A DNA stretch of 64,000 bases. Origin: Shinella curvata. Lineage in GTDB: Bacteria; Pseudomonadota; Alphaproteobacteria; Rhizobiales; Rhizobiaceae. The position numbers and the translations under genes are program-made. Every line of letters starts with the position of its first letter. The first letter of the stretch is position 1. The notes beneath the pieces are model-generated. The model was not told the origin of the DNA, did no database searches, and worked only from the letters and a program-made list of their open reading frames with translations. Location: positions 744,001 to 808,000 of the forward strand of contig NZ_JALJCJ010000002.1 in assembly GCF_022899935.1 (NCBI RefSeq), given 5' to 3'. Of the stretch, positions 46,243-61,323 are shown piece after piece.

Positions 46243-46263
46243 GAATCTACTTTGGAGGGTGTG

Positions 46264-47184
46264 ATGGCTTCTATTAAGGTTGGCGGCGACTATTCAATCG
46301 ACATGGCGGACTTCGATTTCTATGTAGGAGATTTGGAGTCCGCGAAGATCACAAAGTTCACCAGTACCTTGATCACCGGCACAATTGATGGAACCAAGAT
46401 CACGATCAAAGGATCCGGTTTCCAGGCCGACAGCAACGGCGTTCCCGTGGCGGGTACGATCAAGAGCATCGGTGGCGTCGAGGGGGGCAAGACGGTGTTC
46501 TTGCTTTCCGGTGTTTCCATCTCGGTCCCGAAGATCTTGGATCTTGTCGAAAATGGAACGGCCGCAGCGGTAAAAGCTTTCGTGCAAAGCACTTTCAAAG
46601 GTGGTGACATCATTCACGGTGGCGCTTCGGACGACGTGATCCTGGGCTATGCCGGCGATGACAGCCTCTTCGGCGGCGGCGATGCGGACAAAATCTACGG
46701 CGGCTCCGGCAAGGATTACCTCAACGGCGGCGACGGCGCGGATATGCTGAACGGTGGTGCCGGCAATGATACGCTTCTGGGCGGTGTGGGCAACGATATC
46801 CTCAAGGGCAGTTCCGGCAACGACCTGCTGCAGGGCAGTGCCGGCGCCGACAGGCTCTGGGGTGGAGCGGGAGCGGATATCTTCCAGTTCAAATCGATCG
46901 CCAATTCCATGCTGACCAGCCAAGACACGATCTACGACTTTGCCCGTTCAGAGGGCGACAAAATCGACCTGAAGGCGATCGACGCCAATGTGAAGGTGGG
47001 CGGAAACCAGGCGTTTTCCTTCATCGGATCGGACGGCTTCCACAAGAAAGCCGGCGAGCTTCGCTACGAACACAAGTCGGGCGATACCTTTATACAGGGC
47101 GACGTGAACGGCGACGGCAAGATCGACTTCTCCGTCAAGGTGGATGCCCTCGTCAATTTTGCAAAGGGCGATTTCATCCTCTAG
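46264..47184 (+). CDS. RTX calcium-binding secreted protein
   Basis: A 306-residue protein. A short N-terminal part of about 110 residues with no recognised fold is followed by eight or nine GGxGxDxLx nonapeptides (about residues 112-205), then the 86-residue cassette shared with the RTX proteins at 1334 and 4765 (DTIYDF...AGELRY...GDVNGDGKIDF...GDFIL). GGAGGG before 46264 sets the start. It is probably exported by type I secretion. It lies between tRNA-Pro and the polysaccharide cluster, so a role in the extracellular matrix is conceivable but unproven. Confidence 0.85.
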   Translation: MASIKVGGDYSIDMADFDFYVGDLESAKITKFTSTLITGTIDGTKITIKGSGFQADSNGVPVAGTIKSIGGVEGGKTVFLLSGVSISVPKILDLVENGTAAAVKAFVQSTFKGGDIIHGGASDDVILGYAGDDSLFGGGDADKIYGGSGKDYLNGGDGADMLNGGAGNDTLLGGVGNDILKGSSGNDLLQGSAGADRLWGGAGADIFQFKSIANSMLTSQDTIYDFARSEGDKIDLKAIDANVKVGGNQAFSFIGSDGFHKKAGELRYEHKSGDTFIQGDVNGDGKIDFSVKVDALVNFAKGDFIL

Positions 47185-48495: not shown

Positions 48496-49650
48496 TCAGG
48501 CGATCAATCCGCGATAGATCGCTTCCGTCTCGCTGATCATGCGGTCCAGGCCGTAGTCGTGGCTGCGGGCGAGGGCAGCCCTGGTATGGCTGGCAAGGCG
48601 GTCTGTGTCGGTGAGGTGGAGCATCGCGGCGGCAAGGCGTTCCGGGTTGTCGTCGTTTTCCACCAACACGCCGTTCTCGCCGTCCTTCAGCACCATGGAG
48701 GCACCCCCGACATCCGTCAGCACCATCGGCTTGCCGGCGGCGGCAGCCTCCAGCATGACATAGGACATTGCCTCATAGCGACTTGGCATCGCCAGCGCGT
48801 CGATGGCGGCCATGGCCTGCGGGCCGGTGAAACGGGTGGTAAGGCAGATGCGGTCGGCAAAGCCGCTTGCTGCGATCCGTTGGCGAACCGTGTCTTCCAT
48901 TTCACCGGTCCCCACCATCAGGAGATAGGCATTCGGCGCGCGTGCGGCGAGAAGCTGGAAGGCGGCGATCAGGCGTTCGGGGGCCTTCTGGTGGCAAAGA
49001 CGGCCGACGAAGCCGAAGACGAGGGCGTCGGCGGGGATGGCCAGCGCGCTGCGCACGGCCTCGCGCATATCCGTTGGCGGTGTCCCGACGCCATTGACGA
49101 CGATCGACAGCTTTTCACGGGGCATGCCCAGAGCGCGGGCGTGGGCGTATTCGTCGGCGGAGACGCAAATCAGCCGCTCGGTGAAGGCGCGGGCAAGGAG
49201 CCTTTCGATCGAGCCGTAGATCTTGCGGCCGAGATTGCCCAGGCCGGGATCCATGGTGCGAAAGGCGTGCGGCGTATAGACCCGCGCTATGGGACGGCCG
49301 GACAAGCGCAGCCGCGAAAGCGCGCCGGCCTTCGACGAGTGGCCGTGGATGATATCGAAAGGCCCCGCACGACGCACGACGGCGTTGAGCGACCGCCATG
49401 CTGCGAGATCCGAAGGTCCCGGCGAGCGCGCCATGGGGACGGAATGCACGCCGGCGAGGCCGAGCCCCCGCAGCTCTTCGACGAAACGTTCTTCGGCACG
49501 AACAGGCGAATAGACGGCATGCACGATATGGCCGCGTGCCTGCATACCACGGCACAGGTCGATGAAGTGCCGGCCGGAGCCGCCGCCGCTTGGCTCCAGC
49601 ACCTCCATGAGACGCATTTGCCGCGGGTTCCTGTCCTGTAAGGGTGTCAT
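48496..49650 (-). CDS. GT4 family glycosyltransferase
   Basis: A 384-residue GT-B fold glycosyltransferase. Motifs of GT4: the glycine-rich N-terminal loop PSGGGSGRHF, FGFVGRLCHQKAPERLI, and the ExxxxxxxE region MPSRYEAMSYVMLEAAAAGKP. It transfers a sugar from a nucleotide donor to the lipid-linked repeat; donor and acceptor are unknown. The start at 49650 follows the polymerase stop by 7 bases. Confidence 0.9.
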   Translation of the reverse strand: MTPLQDRNPRQMRLMEVLEPSGGGSGRHFIDLCRGMQARGHIVHAVYSPVRAEERFVEELRGLGLAGVHSVPMARSPGPSDLAAWRSLNAVVRRAGPFDIIHGHSSKAGALSRLRLSGRPIARVYTPHAFRTMDPGLGNLGRKIYGSIERLLARAFTERLICVSADEYAHARALGMPREKLSIVVNGVGTPPTDMREAVRSALAIPADALVFGFVGRLCHQKAPERLIAAFQLLAARAPNAYLLMVGTGEMEDTVRQRIAASGFADRICLTTRFTGPQAMAAIDALAMPSRYEAMSYVMLEAAAAGKPMVLTDVGGASMVLKDGENGVLVENDDNPERLAAAMLHLTDTDRLASHTRAALARSHDYGLDRMISETEAIYRGLIA

Positions 49651-49657
49651 GATGCGA

Positions 49658-50893
49658 TCAGCCCGATCCGGTCTTTCTGTTGTGACGCTTTTCGAGCGCG
49701 ATGCATCCCCAGAGCACGCCGATCTGCAGATAGGCGTGGCGCCAGTGGTCCGTGTCGATGACGAAGCCGATCGCCGTGTGTCCGACAACGGTGATGAAGG
49801 CGATCATGAGATAGGGTTGCCAGGGCCGGTTGCGCAGGAGCATTTTGAACCCCGCCCACAGGCTCCAGACGATGAGGGTTAAGTAGCAGGCAAAACCCAG
49901 CCAGCCGTAGGAGGTCAGCGATTTCAGCCAGATGTTGTGTTCGTCTTCGGGAAAGATCTGGCTGAACACCATGGGACCGATGCCGAGCGGCTTTTCCATC
50001 GCCATGAGGAAACCGATGCGATGGCGGTCGAACCGGCCGAGATGACCGCCGTCGTAGTCCTGCACGAGCTGCGTGCGACTGGAGAAGAGGTCGGCGACCT
50101 TGTCGAACTGAAGCGCGACAAGCAGCGCAATGATCATCAACCCGGCGGCCGAAAGGCTGAGGACCAGGATCTTCAGGCGAAAGGCACCCGTGCGCTCCTT
50201 GAGCAGCATGATGAAGACGAGGGCGACCACCGAGAAAAGGTAGAGTGCCCAGGCCGCGCGGGAAAAGGACAGGAACAGGCCGAGGGCGAGAATGAGAACG
50301 CCGACGATCTTCAGCGGTGCGCCAAGGATGCGGCCGGCGAGCAGCCCGTGCACGAGGTAGAGCGAGGGGGCAACGAGGAAGGGGCCAAAGACGTTCGGAT
50401 CCTGGAAGGCGCCCTTGGCGCGGTCGTAGAGCGTGAAGGCCTCGCTGCCGGGAAAGGCATGGAAATAGCCGAGGATGCCGAGCAGCGAGGTGATGATGGC
50501 GCTGGCCACCCAGGCGCGGAAGATGAGGTCTAGCCGCTCGTGCCTGGCCTCGACGATGGAGGCGAAGAAGATGCTGGAAAGCGCCAGGAACAGCGAGACG
50601 GCGATATACATCGGGCCGACCGAAAGGTCATCCAGCATCGTCAGCGAGAGCATGCCGCCGACATTGAAAAGCAGGATGAGCACCACGAGGGGCGCGATGT
50701 AGCGCGAGATGCGCAGGCCGACGATCGCCCAGAGGCCGATGAGAGCGGCCATGAAGAGTTCATAGGGCGCAGGCTCGCTGATGACGAAGCCGGAGAGAAA
50801 GACGCCCACGGCCACCAGCATCGATCCCACGACGCCGAGGGCCGCAAGCTGCGGCCGGAAAGGCGGGGCATAGGGGAGGGCCGTGTCGCTCAA
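49658..50893 (-). CDS. O-antigen ligase/Wzy-type polysaccharide polymerase
   Basis: A 411-residue membrane protein with ten to twelve helices and a long periplasmic loop (around EKPLGIGPMVFSQIFPEDEHNIWLKSL) that holds the signature of the O-antigen ligase family, which includes Wzy-like polymerases. Polymerisation of lipid-linked repeats in the periplasm is expected. Its start overlaps the stop of the upstream glycosyl-phosphotransferase gene by 4 bases (ATGA). Confidence 0.87.
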   Translation of the reverse strand: MSDTALPYAPPFRPQLAALGVVGSMLVAVGVFLSGFVISEPAPYELFMAALIGLWAIVGLRISRYIAPLVVLILLFNVGGMLSLTMLDDLSVGPMYIAVSLFLALSSIFFASIVEARHERLDLIFRAWVASAIITSLLGILGYFHAFPGSEAFTLYDRAKGAFQDPNVFGPFLVAPSLYLVHGLLAGRILGAPLKIVGVLILALGLFLSFSRAAWALYLFSVVALVFIMLLKERTGAFRLKILVLSLSAAGLMIIALLVALQFDKVADLFSSRTQLVQDYDGGHLGRFDRHRIGFLMAMEKPLGIGPMVFSQIFPEDEHNIWLKSLTSYGWLGFACYLTLIVWSLWAGFKMLLRNRPWQPYLMIAFITVVGHTAIGFVIDTDHWRHAYLQIGVLWGCIALEKRHNRKTGSG

Positions 50894-52464
50894 TAGGCGT
50901 TTTCCGTGTTGAGCAGCCGGAAGGGCGTGAGCACCAGGATTTTCAGGTCCAGCCAGAGCGACCAGTTCTCGATGTAATAGAGATCGAATTCCGTGCGGAA
51001 GCGGATCTTGTCGTCATGGTCGATCTCGCCGCGCCAGCCGTTGATCTGCGCCCAGCCGGTAACACCGGGTTTGACGCGGTGGCGTGCGAAATAGCCTTCG
51101 ACCACATCGACATATTTCCGGTCGTGCGATTGGGCCTGGATGGCATGCGGGCGCGGGCCGACGAGCGAGAGTTCCCCCTTCAGCACGTTGAAGATCTGCG
51201 GCAATTCGTCGATCGAGGACTTGCGGATGAAGCGTCCAACGGCGGTCACACGCGGGTCGCCCTTCGTCACCGCGGCGCGCGCCGTCGGATCGGAAAGGTG
51301 CGTGTACATCGAGCGGAACTTGTAGACCTCGATGACCTCGTTGTTGAAACCGTGACGCTTCTGCTTGAAGAGGATCGGGCCGGGCGAGGAAAGCTTTACG
51401 GCGAGCGCTGCACCAAGGAAGACCGGCCAGAGCAGCAGCAGCGCCACGACGGAGAAGAAAATGTCGAAGATGCGTTTTGCGACATTGTCCCAGTCGGCGA
51501 TCGGCTTGTCGAAGATATCGAGCATCGGCAGGTTGCCGACCTGCGAATAGCTGCGCGGTCTGAAACGCAGACCCTTGGCATGGGCTGCAAGGCGGATGTC
51601 GACGGGCAGCACCCAGAGTTTCTTGAGGAGCGAGAGAATGCGCGCCTCCGCCGAAAGCGGCAGCGAGATGATCAGCATGTCGATGCGTGCGAGGCGGGCG
51701 AATTCGACGAGCTCGGCGACGTTGCCCAGCTTGGGATAGCCGGCGATGATCGAGGGGGAGCGGCGCTCGTCACGGTCGTCGAAGATGCCGCAGATGCGGA
51801 TATCGTTTTCCGGCTGGTGTTCCAGCGTCCGGATGAGCTCCTTGGCGGGTTCGCCGCCGCCGACGATCACCGCGCGGCGCTCCATGGTGCCGTTGCGGGC
51901 CCAGCGGCGGATCGAATAGGCGATGATCTGGCGCTCGACGAGCAGGTAGACCGCACCGCCCGCAAACCAGGAGGCGAACCAGACGCGGGAATATTCCTCG
52001 CCGGACTTAAAGAAGAAGACGACGAGCGCCATTGCGCCGAAGGCGGCGGCCCATGCGGCAAGAATGCGCGGCGTCATGCGCCAGGGCGAACGCAGGGCCG
52101 GCACCTGGTAGGCGTCGGCCAGCTGCAACAGCAGAACGCCGACGGCCGAGCCACCGAACAGCACCGACAGGTAGAAGACGGTCATGTTCATGCCGGGCGC
52201 GCTGACATAGGCAAGGTGGATAGCGTAGCCGACCGTCAGCAGGGCGATGAATTCGAGCAAGCGCAGCAGGCCGATGATCATGCTCGGCGAATAGGTGTCC
52301 GCACGAAACTGTAGCGCGATCTTCTGGGCAAGCGGGTTCAGTTCGACCGTTCGGCCGCCGTCATAGTCCGACGGAGGACTGTTGGCCGCGATCGTCCGGA
52401 TTTCGGAAACTTTCCGCCTCAGTTCTTCGGGATCGAAGGAGTCGGGTTTGTCGACATGGTTCAT
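50890..52464 (-). CDS. Undecaprenyl-phosphate hexose phosphotransferase (WcaJ/ExoY type)
   Basis: A 524-residue initiating enzyme that loads the first sugar phosphate onto undecaprenyl phosphate. Four N-terminal helices and a CoA-binding-like domain (AVIVGGGEPAKELIRTL) precede the catalytic domain: KRIFDIFFSVVALLLLWP, the KFRSMY block, KSSIDELPQIFNVLKGELSLVGPRP and KPGVTGWAQINGWRG. This architecture is typical of the long WcaJ-type transferases. Start ATG 52464. Confidence 0.93.
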   Translation of the reverse strand: MNHVDKPDSFDPEELRRKVSEIRTIAANSPPSDYDGGRTVELNPLAQKIALQFRADTYSPSMIIGLLRLLEFIALLTVGYAIHLAYVSAPGMNMTVFYLSVLFGGSAVGVLLLQLADAYQVPALRSPWRMTPRILAAWAAAFGAMALVVFFFKSGEEYSRVWFASWFAGGAVYLLVERQIIAYSIRRWARNGTMERRAVIVGGGEPAKELIRTLEHQPENDIRICGIFDDRDERRSPSIIAGYPKLGNVAELVEFARLARIDMLIISLPLSAEARILSLLKKLWVLPVDIRLAAHAKGLRFRPRSYSQVGNLPMLDIFDKPIADWDNVAKRIFDIFFSVVALLLLWPVFLGAALAVKLSSPGPILFKQKRHGFNNEVIEVYKFRSMYTHLSDPTARAAVTKGDPRVTAVGRFIRKSSIDELPQIFNVLKGELSLVGPRPHAIQAQSHDRKYVDVVEGYFARHRVKPGVTGWAQINGWRGEIDHDDKIRFRTEFDLYYIENWSLWLDLKILVLTPFRLLNTENAY

Positions 52465-52543
52465 GGCACGCACCTGTAGGGGCTTTGTACCGGAGATAGC
52501 ACGAAGCCCCTAAGAAACGTTTACGTGGCGGAAGGCTGGCCGC

Positions 52544-53710
52544 TCAGGGGGCGTATCGTTTTCCGCCAGCCTGGCCGGCGAGGATGTCGCGGTAGAGATC
52601 GAGCAACGAGGACGACATCGTCGATGCCGAGAACGTATTCTTGAAGGTCTGGGGCTCCGGCATGACCTTGTGGAACCAGTCGGGATCGTTGACGGCTTCC
52701 CGCATCACGTTGGCGAGCGAATCCGCATCGCCTGGCTCGGCAAGCGCGATGCTGTTCTGGCCGAGAACTTCCGGAATGCCGCCGACACGGCTCGCGATGA
52801 CCGGTTTGCGCGCGGCAAGCGCTTCAAGCACGATATAGGGCATGGCCTCCGCGCGCGACGGCACGACGACGTTGCGGGTGAGAGCAAAGGCCTCGCGGGC
52901 GCGCATGGCGGGCATCATGGCGATGCGTCGGCCGAGCCCCCAGCGCAGCATCATATTCTCATACTTTTCCTTGTCCGGTCCGTCGCCGATCATCAGAGCG
53001 GAGAGCGGCCGGCCGACGAGGCGTTCCGTCCGAGCGAAGGCATCGACGAAAACGTCCGGCCCCTTCAGGTCGCGCAGCATGCCGATATAGAGGAAATCGA
53101 CCGCATCCTCGCGTGGGTGCACGATCTCGAAATCCCGGTCATGGATGCCGTTGTAGATGCGTTCGGCGCGTTTGCGGGGCTTTCCCACCTTTGTGGCGTA
53201 AGCGTCGCGCTCGAAATCGCAGACGAAGACCAGGCTGTCGCCGAGCCGTTCGAGCAGCCGCTCCGCCGTCAGAATCGAAAGACCCGTGACGGTGCGGCGG
53301 TCGTAGTGCAGGCTGCCGCCATGCGGCGAATAGAGGCGGGCTACGCGATACCTGTTGACCCGCAGGGCTGAGCCGATGAGCCGGGCAATGGCGCCGCCTT
53401 TGGCGCCATGACCGTGCAACACATCCGGCTGCAAACTTTTGATTTCACGGTAACTATGCCTGAACGCCGCGATATCGCGCAGGCTGACGGCGCGGCTGAT
53501 CGGCAGGCGGACGAGGCCAAGGGAAAGATAGGGACGGATCTCGTCGAACAGCGCATCCTCGAACGAGCCGCCCGTGAGGCTGTCACAGACGATGCCGACA
53601 TCGTGCCCGGCCTTGGCATGGAATTCGGCGAGATCGCGCACATGGCGAAAGATCCCGCCGATGGGCGACCGGAAACAATGAATGATGCGCAGAGGCCCAT
53701 CGTCCGCCAT
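52544..53710 (-). CDS. GT4 family glycosyltransferase
   Basis: A 388-residue GT-B glycosyltransferase. SPIGGIFRHVRDLAE is the N-terminal glycine loop, YIGMLRDLKGPDVFVDAF the nucleotide-sugar domain start, and VVPSRAEAMPYIVLEALAARKPVIAS the C-terminal catalytic block. It is the second GT4 of the cluster. The specific sugar is unknown. It starts 5 bases after the export-lipoprotein stop, so the two are coupled. Confidence 0.9.
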   Translation of the reverse strand: MADDGPLRIIHCFRSPIGGIFRHVRDLAEFHAKAGHDVGIVCDSLTGGSFEDALFDEIRPYLSLGLVRLPISRAVSLRDIAAFRHSYREIKSLQPDVLHGHGAKGGAIARLIGSALRVNRYRVARLYSPHGGSLHYDRRTVTGLSILTAERLLERLGDSLVFVCDFERDAYATKVGKPRKRAERIYNGIHDRDFEIVHPREDAVDFLYIGMLRDLKGPDVFVDAFARTERLVGRPLSALMIGDGPDKEKYENMMLRWGLGRRIAMMPAMRAREAFALTRNVVVPSRAEAMPYIVLEALAARKPVIASRVGGIPEVLGQNSIALAEPGDADSLANVMREAVNDPDWFHKVMPEPQTFKNTFSASTMSSSLLDLYRDILAGQAGGKRYAP

Positions 53711-53715
53711 AACGC

Positions 53716-54291
53716 TCAGAACAGCCGTTCGCGGACGTAGATGGTGTCTCCGGCCAGCACGGGATCGGAGATGGAGACGCGGCCCGTGATGATCTTGCCG
53801 TTGATCTTGCGCGTGACGTCCACATCGCCCTGATTGGCGCGCGGAGAGAAGCCGCCGGCCACCGCGATGGCGTTCTGGATCGTCATGCCGGCGACATAGC
53901 TGTATTGCCCGGCCTGACCGACTTCACCCATGATATAGATGGATCGATAGCGGTCGACCTCGATGGAAACGTCGGGATCGCGAAGGTAGCCCTGTCGCAA
54001 TTTCGTGGCGATAACCCGTTCGAGTTCCTGGATCGTCTGGCCGCGTGCAGGGACGGCGCCGACCAGCGGGAAGGCGATGTAGCCGGCCTGATCGATCGTA
54101 TAGGTATTGCTGAGGCCGGGCTGTTCGAAGACGGTGACGCGCAGCCGATCGCCGCTGTCGAGACGATAGGGCTGGATGGTCGCCTCGTGGAAGGCCTTGG
54201 GGGCAGGGCGGTAGCCGCTGCAGCCCGAAACGGCCGGCACGATAAGTGCCAGCGCGAGCAGCATGCCCTTGTTGATCGTTGCGAACGTCAT
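53716..54291 (-). CDS. Wza-like polysaccharide export lipoprotein
   Basis: A 191-residue outer-membrane export protein. The lipobox is AVSGCSG near residue 24. A Poly_export domain (YRLDSGDRLRVTVFEQPGLSNTY) and a SLBB domain (IYIMGEVGQAGQYSYVAGMTIQNAIAVAGGF) follow. It is short compared with E. coli Wza (379), like the rhizobial and holdfast-type exporters. The ATG at 54291 begins the signal peptide. Confidence 0.88.
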   Translation of the reverse strand: MTFATINKGMLLALALIVPAVSGCSGYRPAPKAFHEATIQPYRLDSGDRLRVTVFEQPGLSNTYTIDQAGYIAFPLVGAVPARGQTIQELERVIATKLRQGYLRDPDVSIEVDRYRSIYIMGEVGQAGQYSYVAGMTIQNAIAVAGGFSPRANQGDVDVTRKINGKIITGRVSISDPVLAGDTIYVRERLF

Positions 54292-54503: not shown

Positions 54504-56762
54504 ATGTCGGGCGTTCACGAGAGCCAGCAGGATGTCGATATCGACCTTGGCAGCCTTTTCGGTGCGATCTGGCGTAACCGTATGCGCGTGCTGCTGGCGA
54601 CCGTTGCCGGCGCGGGCATCGCCTTCGTCGGTGCGAGCCTCATCACGCCGAAATACAAGAGCGAATCCCGCCTTCTCATCGAAACGCGCGAGCCGGCCTT
54701 CACCACGGGCACGGACCGCACGCAGGGCCGTGAACAGCCGGCCTTCGACGAACTCGGCATCGCCAGCCAGGTGCAGCTCCTCAAGTCCGCCGATCTCGTC
54801 AAGCAGGTCGCGCGCAATATGAAACTGCATGAACTGGAGGAATTCGATGCGGCCGCCAAGCCGTCTGCGATTTCCGACCTCCTTGTGCTGCTGGGCGTGA
54901 AGAAGAGCCCGCTCGATCTCGCGCCGGAAGATCGCGTGCTGAAGGAATTCAACGAGAAGCTCGCCGTCTACCAGGTGGAGAAATCGCGCGTCATCGCCAT
55001 CGAGTTCACGTCGAAAGACCCGGCACTTGCCGCAGCCATTCCGAACGAGATGGCCAAGGTTTATCTGTCGCTGCAGAGCGGCGCCAAGCTCGACACCAAT
55101 TCCGAGGCGACGCGCTGGCTGGAGCCGGAGATCGCCAATCTGCGTGAAAAGGTGCGGGAGGCCGAGCAGAAGGTCGCCGAATACCGTTCGCAAGCCGACC
55201 TGCTGCCGACGGGCGAGAATTCCACTTTCGCGGTGCGTCAGCTGAACGACATTTCCACGGAACTGGCGCGCGTGCGCGGTGAACGCGCGACGGCCGAGGC
55301 GCGTGCGGAAGGCGTTCGCGCCGTGCTGAAGTCCGGCGGTGCGCCCGATACGTTGAGCGAGGTCGTCGGTTCGCAGATGATCCAGCGCCTGAAGGAAACC
55401 GAGGCGCAGATCCAGAGCCAGATTTCCGATCTTTCCACCTCGATGCTCGAAGGCCATCCGCGCCTCAAGGGGCTGCGTTCCCAGCTGGCGGGCATTCGCA
55501 CGCAGATCAAGTCGGAAACGCAGAAGATCTTGTCGAGCCTGGAAAACGAGGCGAAGACCGCGCGGCTTCGCGAAACGCAGCTGACACAGCAGCTCAATAC
55601 GGTGAAGGCCGATACGGCGCGCGCTGGCGAGGACGAGGTGGGTCTGAAGGCGCTGGAGCGTGAGGCGACGGCCCAGCGCCAGCTTCTCGAAACCTATCTC
55701 GCGCGCTATCGCGAGGCGACGTCACGCACCGACAACAATTCGACGCCGGCCGACGCCCGCATTATCTCCGCCGCCGTCGCACCCACGGAAGTCGATTTCC
55801 CGAAGATTATTCCCATCACCATCGTCGGTGGCATCGCCGGCTTTGCGCTGAGCTCCATCGTGATCCTGCTCGCCGAACTGTTCAGCGGCCGCGCGCTGAA
55901 GCCGATCGGTGGTGTTGCCGTCGCGTCGCGCCGACGCGAGGAGGAGGAGGTTGCGGTCGAGCCGGTCGTGGTCGAGGCAGCGGCGGATGAGCCGGCGGTC
56001 CGAAAGGTCCCGGTCAGCCGCCTGGACCCCGGCGCGGTCAAGGATATCCGGGCGCCCGCAAAATCCCTGCTGTCCGGCATTGAGTTGGAACCGGAGCCGG
56101 AAGAGGAAGAGGACGAGGAGGTCGCGCGGTCGTCGCTGGTCGATGCGATCGCCCTCGATGAGGAAAGCGATTTCTCCGTCGCTGCCGTTGCGCGCCATAT
56201 CATCGAGAACAACATTTCCGTGGCGGTCTCGGTATCGCCATCGGGTGACAGCGGCTCGACGGCGACCGTCATGCTGGCCCGCCGCATCGCGGAAGAATAC
56301 CGCAAGACGCTGATCATCGATCTCACCGGCTCGGCCTGCCCGACGCGACTCATGGCCCAGTCCACCCATGTGCCCGGGATCACGGACCTGCTGGTGGGCG
56401 ACGCGGCCTTCAGCGAGATCATCCATGGTGACCGCCTGTCGAGCGCCCATATCATCCCGCGCGGCAATGCCAATATCAAGCGCGCCATGCGCGGCATAGA
56501 CCGTCTCTCGATGGTGATCGATTCGCTGTCGGACGCTTATGACACGGTCATCGTGGAATGCGGCCCGGCGGAAGTCGAAGGCGTGCGCCGCCTGACACGC
56601 GATCGCGATACCGATATCATTCTGTCCATTCCGGATGCGGACGAAGACGCGATCGTGGATCTGATCGGCGCCTTCGGCGAGGCCGGCTATACCGAGATCG
56701 TGCTGATGACCGGCGAGGAGGGCGAACCGCCGCACTATCCGGGTCACCGGGTCGCCGCCTAG
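54504..56762 (+). CDS. Polysaccharide co-polymerase (GumC/Wzc type) with degenerate BY-kinase domain
   Basis: A 752-residue protein. A Wzz domain with one helix near residues 27-49, a long coiled coil (about 200-410), a GNVR-type region (QRQLLETYLARYREAT) and a second helix (about 430-457) form the chain-length regulator. A linker rich in Glu and Pro follows. The C-terminal domain resembles BY-kinases but has no functional nucleotide motifs: SGDSGST at 580-586 replaces Walker A GxGK(S/T), IDLTGSA replaces Walker A', and VECGP at 684-688 replaces Walker B. There is only one C-terminal Tyr, so no autophosphorylated cluster. Confidence 0.88.
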   Translation: MSGVHESQQDVDIDLGSLFGAIWRNRMRVLLATVAGAGIAFVGASLITPKYKSESRLLIETREPAFTTGTDRTQGREQPAFDELGIASQVQLLKSADLVKQVARNMKLHELEEFDAAAKPSAISDLLVLLGVKKSPLDLAPEDRVLKEFNEKLAVYQVEKSRVIAIEFTSKDPALAAAIPNEMAKVYLSLQSGAKLDTNSEATRWLEPEIANLREKVREAEQKVAEYRSQADLLPTGENSTFAVRQLNDISTELARVRGERATAEARAEGVRAVLKSGGAPDTLSEVVGSQMIQRLKETEAQIQSQISDLSTSMLEGHPRLKGLRSQLAGIRTQIKSETQKILSSLENEAKTARLRETQLTQQLNTVKADTARAGEDEVGLKALEREATAQRQLLETYLARYREATSRTDNNSTPADARIISAAVAPTEVDFPKIIPITIVGGIAGFALSSIVILLAELFSGRALKPIGGVAVASRRREEEEVAVEPVVVEAAADEPAVRKVPVSRLDPGAVKDIRAPAKSLLSGIELEPEPEEEEDEEVARSSLVDAIALDEESDFSVAAVARHIIENNISVAVSVSPSGDSGSTATVMLARRIAEEYRKTLIIDLTGSACPTRLMAQSTHVPGITDLLVGDAAFSEIIHGDRLSSAHIIPRGNANIKRAMRGIDRLSMVIDSLSDAYDTVIVECGPAEVEGVRRLTRDRDTDIILSIPDADEDAIVDLIGAFGEAGYTEIVLMTGEEGEPPHYPGHRVAA

Positions 56763-56772
56763 GGCGTTTCTG

Positions 56773-58035
56773 CTAGTCGACGTCTTCCGCGCGAACGAAT
56801 TCCGTCTTGCCGGAGCGCATGCGCTGCAGGAACGAATAGACCTGCGGATTCTGTTTGATGATGCGCTTGGCACCGGCTTTCGCCCGGTGCACGGCCGCCA
56901 CCGCCGTGCCGGCCACCGTCGTTGGCCAGAGCAGGTCGTGCTGCGGCGTTTCGATCGTGCACCAGGAGCGCTTGTAGGGCTGGTCGCCGATGCCGAAATC
57001 GAACAGGCGCACGCCCTCGCCGCAGAGCTTGCGGATCGCCAGATAGAACAGGAATTCCCCCGGGCTCGCATCGGCGGCGATCGTATCGTCGATCGAGCCG
57101 AACTGGCAGACCACGTGGTCGCCCTTGCGCGACAGGCCGGCGATCGCAACGATACGGCCTTCGTTCTCGCCCTTGAGGCGCACGGCATGGAGCTGAAGCG
57201 GATAGTTGCCATCAAGCGATGGCACCGCGACAAGCGTGCGGAAGAAGCTGCGCGTCTCCTCGTTGCGGAAGACGTCCGGAAGGCCCATCGTGTCGAACCG
57301 GGCGGCCTTCTGGCGGAAGAAGACTTCGAGCAGGGCGCGACTATCTTCCGCCGTCTCCGCCACGACATGCTCGTAACCGCCAAGCATTTCCAGCCGGCGC
57401 TCAGAGGTGCGGAATTTCTTGCGGCGACGCTTGGCGTTGACCTGCGCGAGCGTACGCTCGAAATCCTCGAAGAGTTCGAGCTGGAAGGCGGCATTCTGGT
57501 TCAGCGTCGCGGGGAGGTCGGCGAAGGAATTCGTCTCGCCACGCCAATCGAGCGGCACCTTCTCCAGCATGAAGAGATCGAAGTAACGCGAAAACTGGCC
57601 GCGCGCCTGTTCAAGCGCCTGGCGCAGGCGCGGCGGGGCGGCGAGGAAGCGGAATTCTTCGGTGTAGAGGCCCGTATTGATGTTGCTGAAGGCGGTGCCG
57701 AGAAAGCGCGCGATGCGCACCGGCCCATGGCGCATGATTTCGAGTGGGAGGATCAGATGGGTCTTGCCACCGGCAAACCCTTCGACGATCAAAAGCTTGC
57801 ATGCGTGGGTCCCGGCCCAGGCACGGCACCAGTCGTAGCTCTGATGGAGCGACAGGTTGTTGTCCGCCTCCAGGGCGCGCCATTGGGCTTCCAGGGGCTC
57901 CATGCGGTCGTGCAGGCGGATGGAGAGGGGGACGAGCGAGGGCGTGCGCTCCTCGCCGGCAAGGATTCCCATATACCGGGTCGCGAGCTCGCGCTCTGAC
58001 GGCATGATCTGGAAATTGAGTTGCATCGCTCCCAT
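56773..58035 (-). CDS. GNAT family acyltransferase (CelD/BcsL-like)
   Basis: A 420-residue protein of the GNAT (Acetyltransf_6) type, related to cellulose-synthesis protein CelD. The core is in the C-terminal half (ARFDTMGLPDVFRN, LQLHAVRLKGENEGRIVAIAGL, GEFLFYLAIRKLCGEGVRLFDFGIGDQPYKRSW). Such proteins are found in polysaccharide loci and probably transfer acyl or amino-acyl groups. It converges with the co-polymerase gene (10-bp gap). ATG 58026 is an alternative start. Confidence 0.85.
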   Translation of the reverse strand: MGAMQLNFQIMPSERELATRYMGILAGEERTPSLVPLSIRLHDRMEPLEAQWRALEADNNLSLHQSYDWCRAWAGTHACKLLIVEGFAGGKTHLILPLEIMRHGPVRIARFLGTAFSNINTGLYTEEFRFLAAPPRLRQALEQARGQFSRYFDLFMLEKVPLDWRGETNSFADLPATLNQNAAFQLELFEDFERTLAQVNAKRRRKKFRTSERRLEMLGGYEHVVAETAEDSRALLEVFFRQKAARFDTMGLPDVFRNEETRSFFRTLVAVPSLDGNYPLQLHAVRLKGENEGRIVAIAGLSRKGDHVVCQFGSIDDTIAADASPGEFLFYLAIRKLCGEGVRLFDFGIGDQPYKRSWCTIETPQHDLLWPTTVAGTAVAAVHRAKAGAKRIIKQNPQVYSFLQRMRSGKTEFVRAEDVD

Positions 58036-60480: not shown

Positions 60481-61323
60481 TCAGACCTGTTTGAGGACAT
60501 TCCGGATGGCGGCGGCGACGGCGAGTTCGTTGTCGCGTTCCTCCGCATTGTCGTCCTCGTCATGCCATGCGGCCGACAAGCAGCCATAGGCGACGCCGTA
60601 ACGCAGGATGGTGCGGACGTCGCGCCCGAGCGTTTCGGCGAAAATCTCTGCCATCGCGGCAATCCGCTCCTCGCTGCGGGTCAGGTCGAAACGGTCAAGC
60701 GGGTTTGAGAACATGTTGGCGACATCGAGCGCGGCGTCGCCAATCAATCCGGCGGGGTCGATGATCAGCCAGCCGCGCGGGCCGTGGACGATGTTTTCGT
60801 GGTGTAGGTCGCCGTGCAGCGGCTTGATGTCCTGCTGATTGGCAATCAGCATCTCGGCGAATTCAGCCGCCTCGGCATAGGGACCGGGAATACCTCCTTT
60901 GCGATCCCGCTCGGCCTTGGCGAACAGGCTCACGAAATAGCGCTGTAGCGATTGCAGGCTTGCCGGCGGTGGCGTGTCGGATGGGCGGTGATATTCTCGC
61001 AGCACTGTAGCAGCGATGCGCGTTGCATCCTCGTCGCCGTGGATCTCCATGTGATCCCGGAGCGTCGTCCTGCCGGCATGTTCCATCAGAAGCATGTCAG
61101 CGGATCGAGCAAGCAGCCTGACGCAGCCGGTGCCGTCACGCCAGGTCAAAAAATCCGCGCCGCGCAGGCTGTCTTCCAGAACCTTCAGCTTGAGCTGCTT
61201 GACGATTGCTTCGCTACCGTCGGCAAGCTTCACGTCATAGACGTTGCCGGCAGGCGTATCGGCGATGAGGCGGGCGTCTTCGATCCGCCATTCGACCGGG
61301 AAGGGCGGGTGGCCAGTCGTCAT
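60481..61323 (-). CDS. APH(6)-like kinase (aminoglycoside/hydroxyurea kinase family)
   Basis: A 280-residue kinase of the APH_6_hur (PF04655) type, related to streptomycin 6-phosphotransferases. The catalytic loop is [10 protein letters not shown], and the metal site [21 protein letters not shown] corresponds to DFG. Chromosomal members often have unknown natural substrates, so antibiotic resistance is not implied. Its start overlaps the argC stop by 4 bases. Confidence 0.83.

Follow-up and report, generated by a model that had tools for sequence, protein, structure and literature searches.

A fused, predicted BY pseudokinase domain in the upp-type polysaccharide co-polymerase of Shinella curvata and its relatives

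Introduction

Polysaccharide co-polymerases (PCPs) of the PCP-2a type, such as Escherichia coli Wzc and rhizobial ExoP, carry a BY-kinase fold with intact Walker motifs and a Tyr-rich tail. For Wzc, PMC11986026 describes a phosphorylation-driven cycling of octamers, in which the unphosphorylated octamers are the most stable and phosphorylation of the tail takes octamers apart. A second kind of protein, the BY pseudokinase, is represented by EcpK and HfsB, which are described, with what follows on both, in PMC12004946. HfsB belongs to the polar-adhesin (holdfast) pathway of Caulobacter crescentus, has neither catalytic residues nor a Tyr tail, and is required for the stability of HfsA. EcpK of Myxococcus xanthus works with a PCP-2, EpsV, to which it binds, and has been proposed to be a scaffold. 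The same text cites Cuthbertson et al. 2009 for fused versions, among them S. meliloti SMc01795, Mlr8439 and others.

Polar adhesins of the unipolar polysaccharide (upp) type are encoded by uppABCDEF. According to PMC4018554, these genes are orthologous to the glucomannan genes of R. leguminosarum and make up a Wzy-type cluster that is incomplete; in PMC12727192, uppC is of the Wza type and uppE of the WbaP type.

Here, we analyze a co-polymerase encoded in a window of 64,000 nucleotides of Shinella curvata DNA. An earlier note, made from the letters of this DNA, had proposed that its C-terminal BY-kinase domain has lost all nucleotide-binding motifs, and had suggested a pseudokinase that plays a structural or partner-binding part in polysaccharide chain control. 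The closest described proteins are those of the fused SMc01795/Mlr8439 type, which are alike in architecture and motif loss by the description in PMC12004946, SMc01795 coming from a close relative. The two stand-alone pseudokinases differ in arrangement: HfsB is a separate protein, whereas the Shinella domain is fused in a 752-residue chain, so the bipartite arrangement of EcpK and HfsB is not found here; EcpK, in the same source, stands alone, serves the M. xanthus EPS and ends in a C-terminal helix. The fused kind of BY pseudokinase is thus already described, and what is added here is the age of the loss, the synteny, the selection on the domain and an apparent re-fixation of the old pocket confined to Rhizobiaceae.

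Architecture of the co-polymerase

The co-polymerase reading frame is intact and encodes one polypeptide of 752 codons, from the ATG at 54504 to the stop codon at 56760–56762, with residue 573 beginning at 56220, as the earlier note had placed it. Pfam recognizes a Wzz domain at the N-terminus (42.1 bits, against a cut-off of 25.5) and, only marginally, AAA_31 at the C-terminus. The best NCBIfam match is TIGR01005 (eps_transp_fam, exopolysaccharide transport family), at 396.8 bits, below the curated cut-off of 411.7. As in Wzc and ExoP, a Wzz-type periplasmic domain lies between two helices and a BY-kinase fold is found in the same chain, which is the PCP-2a (Wzc-like) architecture (Table 1). 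The full-length AlphaFold2 model was built on an alignment of 49 of the 81 orthologues described below, thinned for identity. It has a mean pLDDT of 81.6 and a compact C-terminal domain, and its pTM of 0.44 (49 rows) is low, so the relative placement of the protein's parts in it is untrustworthy. On the opposite strand, a 590-residue open frame (55722–57494) runs antisense to the end of the co-polymerase gene and to the neighboring GNAT gene, and is probably a high-GC shadow frame.

Table 1. Features of the co-polymerase locus, in window coordinates
Feature	Coordinates	Strand	Basis
PCP-2-type polysaccharide co-polymerase with predicted C-terminal BY pseudokinase domain, 752 aa (uppB position)	54504..56762	+	ORF, Pfam, NCBIfam
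N-terminal transmembrane helix region, residues 15–45	54546..54638	+	AlphaFold2 full-length model; predicted as transmembrane from PCP architecture
Periplasmic domain, residues 50–425, mainly long helices	54651..55778	+	Model; PslE match by sequence profile
Second transmembrane helix, residues 435–461	55806..55886	+	AlphaFold2 model
Linker, residues 470–552, acidic, disordered, fast-evolving	55911..56159	+	pLDDT <50 for 470–552; dN/dS 0.49 for 471–555
Predicted BY pseudokinase domain, residues 553–745	56160..56738	+	Fold comparison; dN/dS 0.153 for 556–745
Changed Walker A loop SPSGDSGST (578–586), G584 at the Lys position	56235..56261	+	Orthologue alignment
Changed Walker A' DLTGS (606–610), first Asp kept, second replaced by Thr	56319..56333	+	Orthologue alignment
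Changed Walker B VIVECGP (682–688), Asp replaced by Glu, PP absent	56547..56567	+	Orthologue alignment
OPX (Wza-type) outer membrane export protein, short form, divergent from the PCP gene (uppC position)	53716..54291	-	Pfam Poly_export, SLBB
Family 4 glycosyltransferase	52544..53710	-	Family scan
Polyprenyl-phosphate sugar-phosphate transferase (PHPT; uppE/hfsE position)	50890..52473	-	Pfam Bac_transf
Wzy_C (O-antigen ligase/polymerase family) membrane protein	49658..50893	-	Family scan
Second family 4 glycosyltransferase; frame overlaps the Wzy_C gene, start probably later	48496..49788	-	Family scan
GNAT (Acetyltransf_6), convergent neighbor (uppA position)	56773..58020	-	Pfam PF13480

Locus and upp assignment

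The co-polymerase gene and its neighbors form a conserved block in the order GNAT-PCP-OPX-GT-PHPT-Wzy, with the OPX gene third and the initiating transferase fifth, which fits the gene set and order of upp and places the co-polymerase gene at uppB. The cluster fits the upp type, an assignment drawn from gene order and families, not from phenotype. Beyond the GNAT gene lie a phosphoesterase, ctaA, an APH-type kinase, argC and an agmatinase, the last two assigned by reading. SMc01795 presumably occupies the corresponding site near argC as the orthologue of this gene. In the named orthologous loci, an OPX gene is found no farther than 1.5 kb from the PCP gene in 80/80 cases and a GNAT gene in 77/80; among 37 family- and order-level loci, some of which are short contigs or other co-polymerases, the counts are 30 and 18. 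Just outside the polysaccharide cluster, an open reading frame on the forward strand (46252–47184) has many GGxGxD-type repeats resembling those of calcium-binding, RTX-like secreted proteins.

No stand-alone active partner kinase was found among the ten locus neighbors scanned. The APH-type protein (60481–61323) belongs to an aminoglycoside-kinase family. A search of the genome with TIGR01007 gave one match above the cut-off, on another contig. The earlier note had asked whether an active BY-kinase is encoded elsewhere, and there is one: the genome's single canonical BY-kinase is an ExoP-like protein located away from this cluster; its motifs are intact and its tail is rich in Tyr.

Lost kinase motifs in a modelled BY-kinase fold

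Conservation was examined in 81 orthologues, made up of the window's protein and 80 named loci. These are mostly from Rhizobiaceae (Rhizobium, Ensifer, Shinella, Agrobacterium and related genera); the set also includes some ‘Rhizobiales bacterium’ and metagenome-assembled records. A whole-protein search finds a match in 57 of 61 genomes, namely the window's own and 60 relatives. In one of the orthologous loci (L029, G036:C4:172376-174511), the search reports one in-frame TGA within the match.

All three nucleotide-binding motifs are changed throughout this set, as the earlier note had read them from one protein (Gly584 for the Walker A Lys, DLTGS for A', VECGP for Walker B). Gly stands at the position of the Walker A Lys in 81/81 orthologues; S578, G581, S585 and D606, the first Asp of A', are likewise invariant (81/81), and residue 582 is Asp in 79/81. 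At residue 608, Thr is found in 76 orthologues and Ser in 5, followed by G609 in 78 of 81. The Walker B site has Glu at 685 in 77 of 81 (Asp in 4), C686 in 79 and G687 in 80. The ExoP-like protein of the same genome (L060) reads LPGEGKST, LIDADVRR and VVVDLTPLG at these sites. The claim that there is no Tyr cluster also stands, with 0 to 3 Tyr in the last 40 residues of each of the 81 orthologues. Local decay or a sequencing error is ruled out by a change common to 81/81 orthologues. The 752-residue co-polymerase therefore lacks what marks an active BY-kinase, that is, the Walker A, A' and B motifs and a Tyr-rich C-terminal tail.

The BY-kinase fold is kept in the domain as modelled. The domain modelled alone with AlphaFold2 has a mean pLDDT of 89.3. 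Foldseek places BceF (E 3.8e-9) and Wzc as the best solved structures, with Etk, CapA1B1 and VpsO within its best 20 entries. VIA-align gives Z of about 17–19 for most Wzc, Etk and CapB entries and a Z of 21.3 for VpsO at an rmsd of 7.1; MinD/ParA-type entries score lower (12–15). The sequence profile of the domain, compared with the PDB, matches MinD, BceF and Wzc. The structure and profile searches together rule out a chance resemblance to the kinase fold, and the earlier note's impression of a retained fold holds. Within the model, strand beta-1 (573–577) is followed by a loop of four residues (578–581) and a helix that starts at D582, so that the P-loop itself looks remodelled. The helix preceding beta-1 can carry the motif E-x-x-R-x-x-[RKH], which has a role in ring assembly. 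Where the P-loop is intact, 22 of 32 relatives have this motif, versus 1 of 42 where it is not, and the loss therefore goes beyond the nucleotide motifs.

A BY-kinase fold without Walker motifs or a Tyr tail, conserved as such in orthologues, describes a BY pseudokinase in its fused variant. The conserved absence of the motifs supports the earlier reading, and these sequences are best read as those of a pseudokinase whose role is structural or lies in partner binding.

Age of the loss

The loss was dated on an IQ-TREE phylogeny of 79 co-polymerases computed from residues 10–469 only, with the kinase columns excluded and thus unable to shape the tree. The rows were chosen by us from the fetched proteins; class-level frames shorter than 600 residues were omitted, as were most near-identical same-genus orthologues and two loci in which the region is absent (L074 and L075). 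Each row was scored for a [GA]K[STA] loop within the loop columns, setting aside L062, L173, L174 and L176, in which the domain is absent, and L064, which is gapped there.

The upp-type PCPs, from Rhizobiaceae and other families of Hyphomicrobiales, form one side of a branch with support of 97/88. Their clade has 41 members, and none of the 40 scored rows has the loop; together with the absence of intact motifs in all 81 orthologues (0/81), this answers the alignment check proposed in the earlier note: the decay is conserved. Outside the clade (38 rows), the loop is found in 32 of 34 scored rows, L061 and L073 being without it and four rows being domainless. Mapped on the tree, the loop label changes 2 times, versus a mean of 24 in shuffles. 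On this tree, the loss in the upp-type clade needs one event, placed before the diversification of the order's upp-type PCPs. The second Asp of A' (residue 608) is Asp in 30 of 32 intact relatives versus 6 of 41 in the clade, and all 41 clade members have 0–2 Tyr among the last 40 residues.

Three clade members from other families (L054, L055 and L063) retain a DxD-type A', which is LIDAD in L055. Their sequences suggest that the P-loop was lost first and A' later. L041 (EENKS) and L055 (DKS) have an isolated lysine near the loop, with the preceding glycine absent, and may show steps of the decay.

L061 and L073 represent a separate loss in the tree and a second degenerate type. L061 is encoded in the same genome as the co-polymerase studied here (~G000:C16:204438-205841) and is a second co-polymerase with a shortened, degenerate kinase-like domain lacking the GK[ST] loop. 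As a control, 20 lower-scoring co-polymerase matches of the whole-protein search were read: the GK[ST] loop is intact in 17, and the other three lack a kinase domain. The control being mostly intact, the loss belongs to the protein of the upp-type pathway, not to the genomes.

A class-wide sample of 142 genomes was queried with the domain and with the full protein, and the loci read were mostly relatives with intact loops. Among the loci read, none was identifiable as hfsAB, and L246 encodes a PCP that lacks the kinase domain. Two loci of the same class but from orders outside Hyphomicrobiales, L240 and L249, encode fused co-polymerases without the P-loop lysine. In a quick tree enlarged by further class-level rows, from which L044 and L078 (long branches) and L191 (the same protein as L248) were excluded, L240 and the intact L248 join the upp clade at its base and L249 falls elsewhere. 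The label then changes 4 times, which makes additional losses outside the order likely.

Role of the domain and alternative readings

With no kinase motifs and no tail, the canonical phosphorylation cycle of Wzc should be impossible in this protein. Our preferred reading, which we consider probable, is that the protein is predicted to act as a phosphorylation-independent PCP of an upp-type, holdfast-like export pathway, in which the dead domain is a cytoplasmic scaffold. The domain would no longer cycle through ATP-driven Tyr phosphorylation and would form a fixed or partner-gated scaffold behind the second transmembrane helix. By analogy with the proposals for HfsB and EcpK, such a scaffold could stabilize the co-polymerase or seat it alongside Wzy, polar factors or the initiating transferase, and assembly and disassembly would be under a control other than phosphorylation. 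Three observations count against this reading in a simple form. The E-x-x-R-x-x-[RKH] motif is mostly lost, and an octameric ring may not be formed; L041 and L055 retain their isolated lysine; and in Rhizobiaceae conservation is higher at the old pocket than elsewhere in the domain, a pattern not expected of a plain scaffold.

The last of these observations underlies an alternative that we hold to be unlikely, though worth following, in which the former nucleotide site was re-fixed in Rhizobiaceae (SPxGDxGS, D[LM]TGS, [ED]CG) as a putative pocket that would bind a different small ligand, or a peptide of a partner, and would gate the co-polymerase. Among Rhizobiaceae, 13 of 27 old-site positions, taken from the three motif loops, are conserved at the level of at least 95%, versus 27 of 163 elsewhere in the domain (Fisher p 0.0006), and 8 of 27 versus 18 of 163 in 38 rows thinned to less than 80% identity (p 0.016), p values that are flattering because the test was chosen after the letters had been seen to be conserved and because related rows are not independent. 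The trend is opposite in 18 rows from other families, with a mean conservation of 0.31 at the site and 0.40 elsewhere. Against a binding site, loops rich in Gly and Ser are possibly conserved for folding alone. These alignments suggest a renewed fixation of the old pocket in Rhizobiaceae, a lead rather than a proof; the conserved letters could serve packing or form a site for a ligand or partner. In its boldest form, which we likewise think unlikely, the dead kinase would have become a receptor, whose candidate ligand or partner would license the export of the polar adhesin in place of the phosphorylation switch of Wzc. A literature search, with subscription papers mostly outside its scope, found no paper on the changed pocket of this domain.

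It is very unlikely that the domain is a cryptic ATPase or ATP sensor that still binds nucleotide through other residues. D606 of A' is present in 81/81 orthologues and an acidic residue, Glu or Asp, at 685 in 81/81, which speaks for this reading; against it, there is no lysine, the modelled loop is short, with its helix running from D582, and both the second Asp of A' and the Walker B PP have been lost.

Regulation in trans, by mixed oligomers in which the ExoP-like active BY-kinase controls the pseudokinase PCP, is highly improbable. An ExoP-like PCP whose motifs are intact and whose tail is Tyr-rich is encoded in the same genome, but the upp-type protein offers no Tyr tail for phosphorylation and the two PCPs lie far apart in the tree. 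The M. xanthus data are also unfavorable, since in PMC12004946 pseudokinases are argued to act independently of active BY-kinases.

Selection on the domain was estimated in 21 same-genus genomes, including the window's, with pairs outside a dS of 0.05–1.5 dropped; of 210 pairs, 210 were retained for the PCP part, 209 for the domain and 144 for the linker. The median pairwise dN/dS is 0.125 for residues 1–470, 0.153 for the domain (556–745) and 0.49 for the linker (471–555). At 0.153, the domain is kept by purifying selection. The linker (55911–56159) evolves about three times faster than the domain. That the domain is a functionless leftover is accordingly an extremely remote prospect: motif letters do vary freely between families of the order, and the kinase domain is missing altogether from some relatives of other PCP groups (L062, L173, L174 and L176), but the dN/dS of the domain is near that of the co-polymerase part and far below that of the linker, the same new letters stand at the key motif positions through 81 orthologues, and the model is well folded.

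Significance

The scaffold reading, with a dead domain that is kept under selection, raises the question of what replaces phosphorylation in the control of a PCP. The age of the loss and the apparently re-fixed pocket are the parts worth specialist attention, and the pocket supplies named residues for mutation. Since before its families split, a whole order with many plant-associated members appears to have operated the co-polymerase of its polar adhesin in the absence of the phosphorylation switch.
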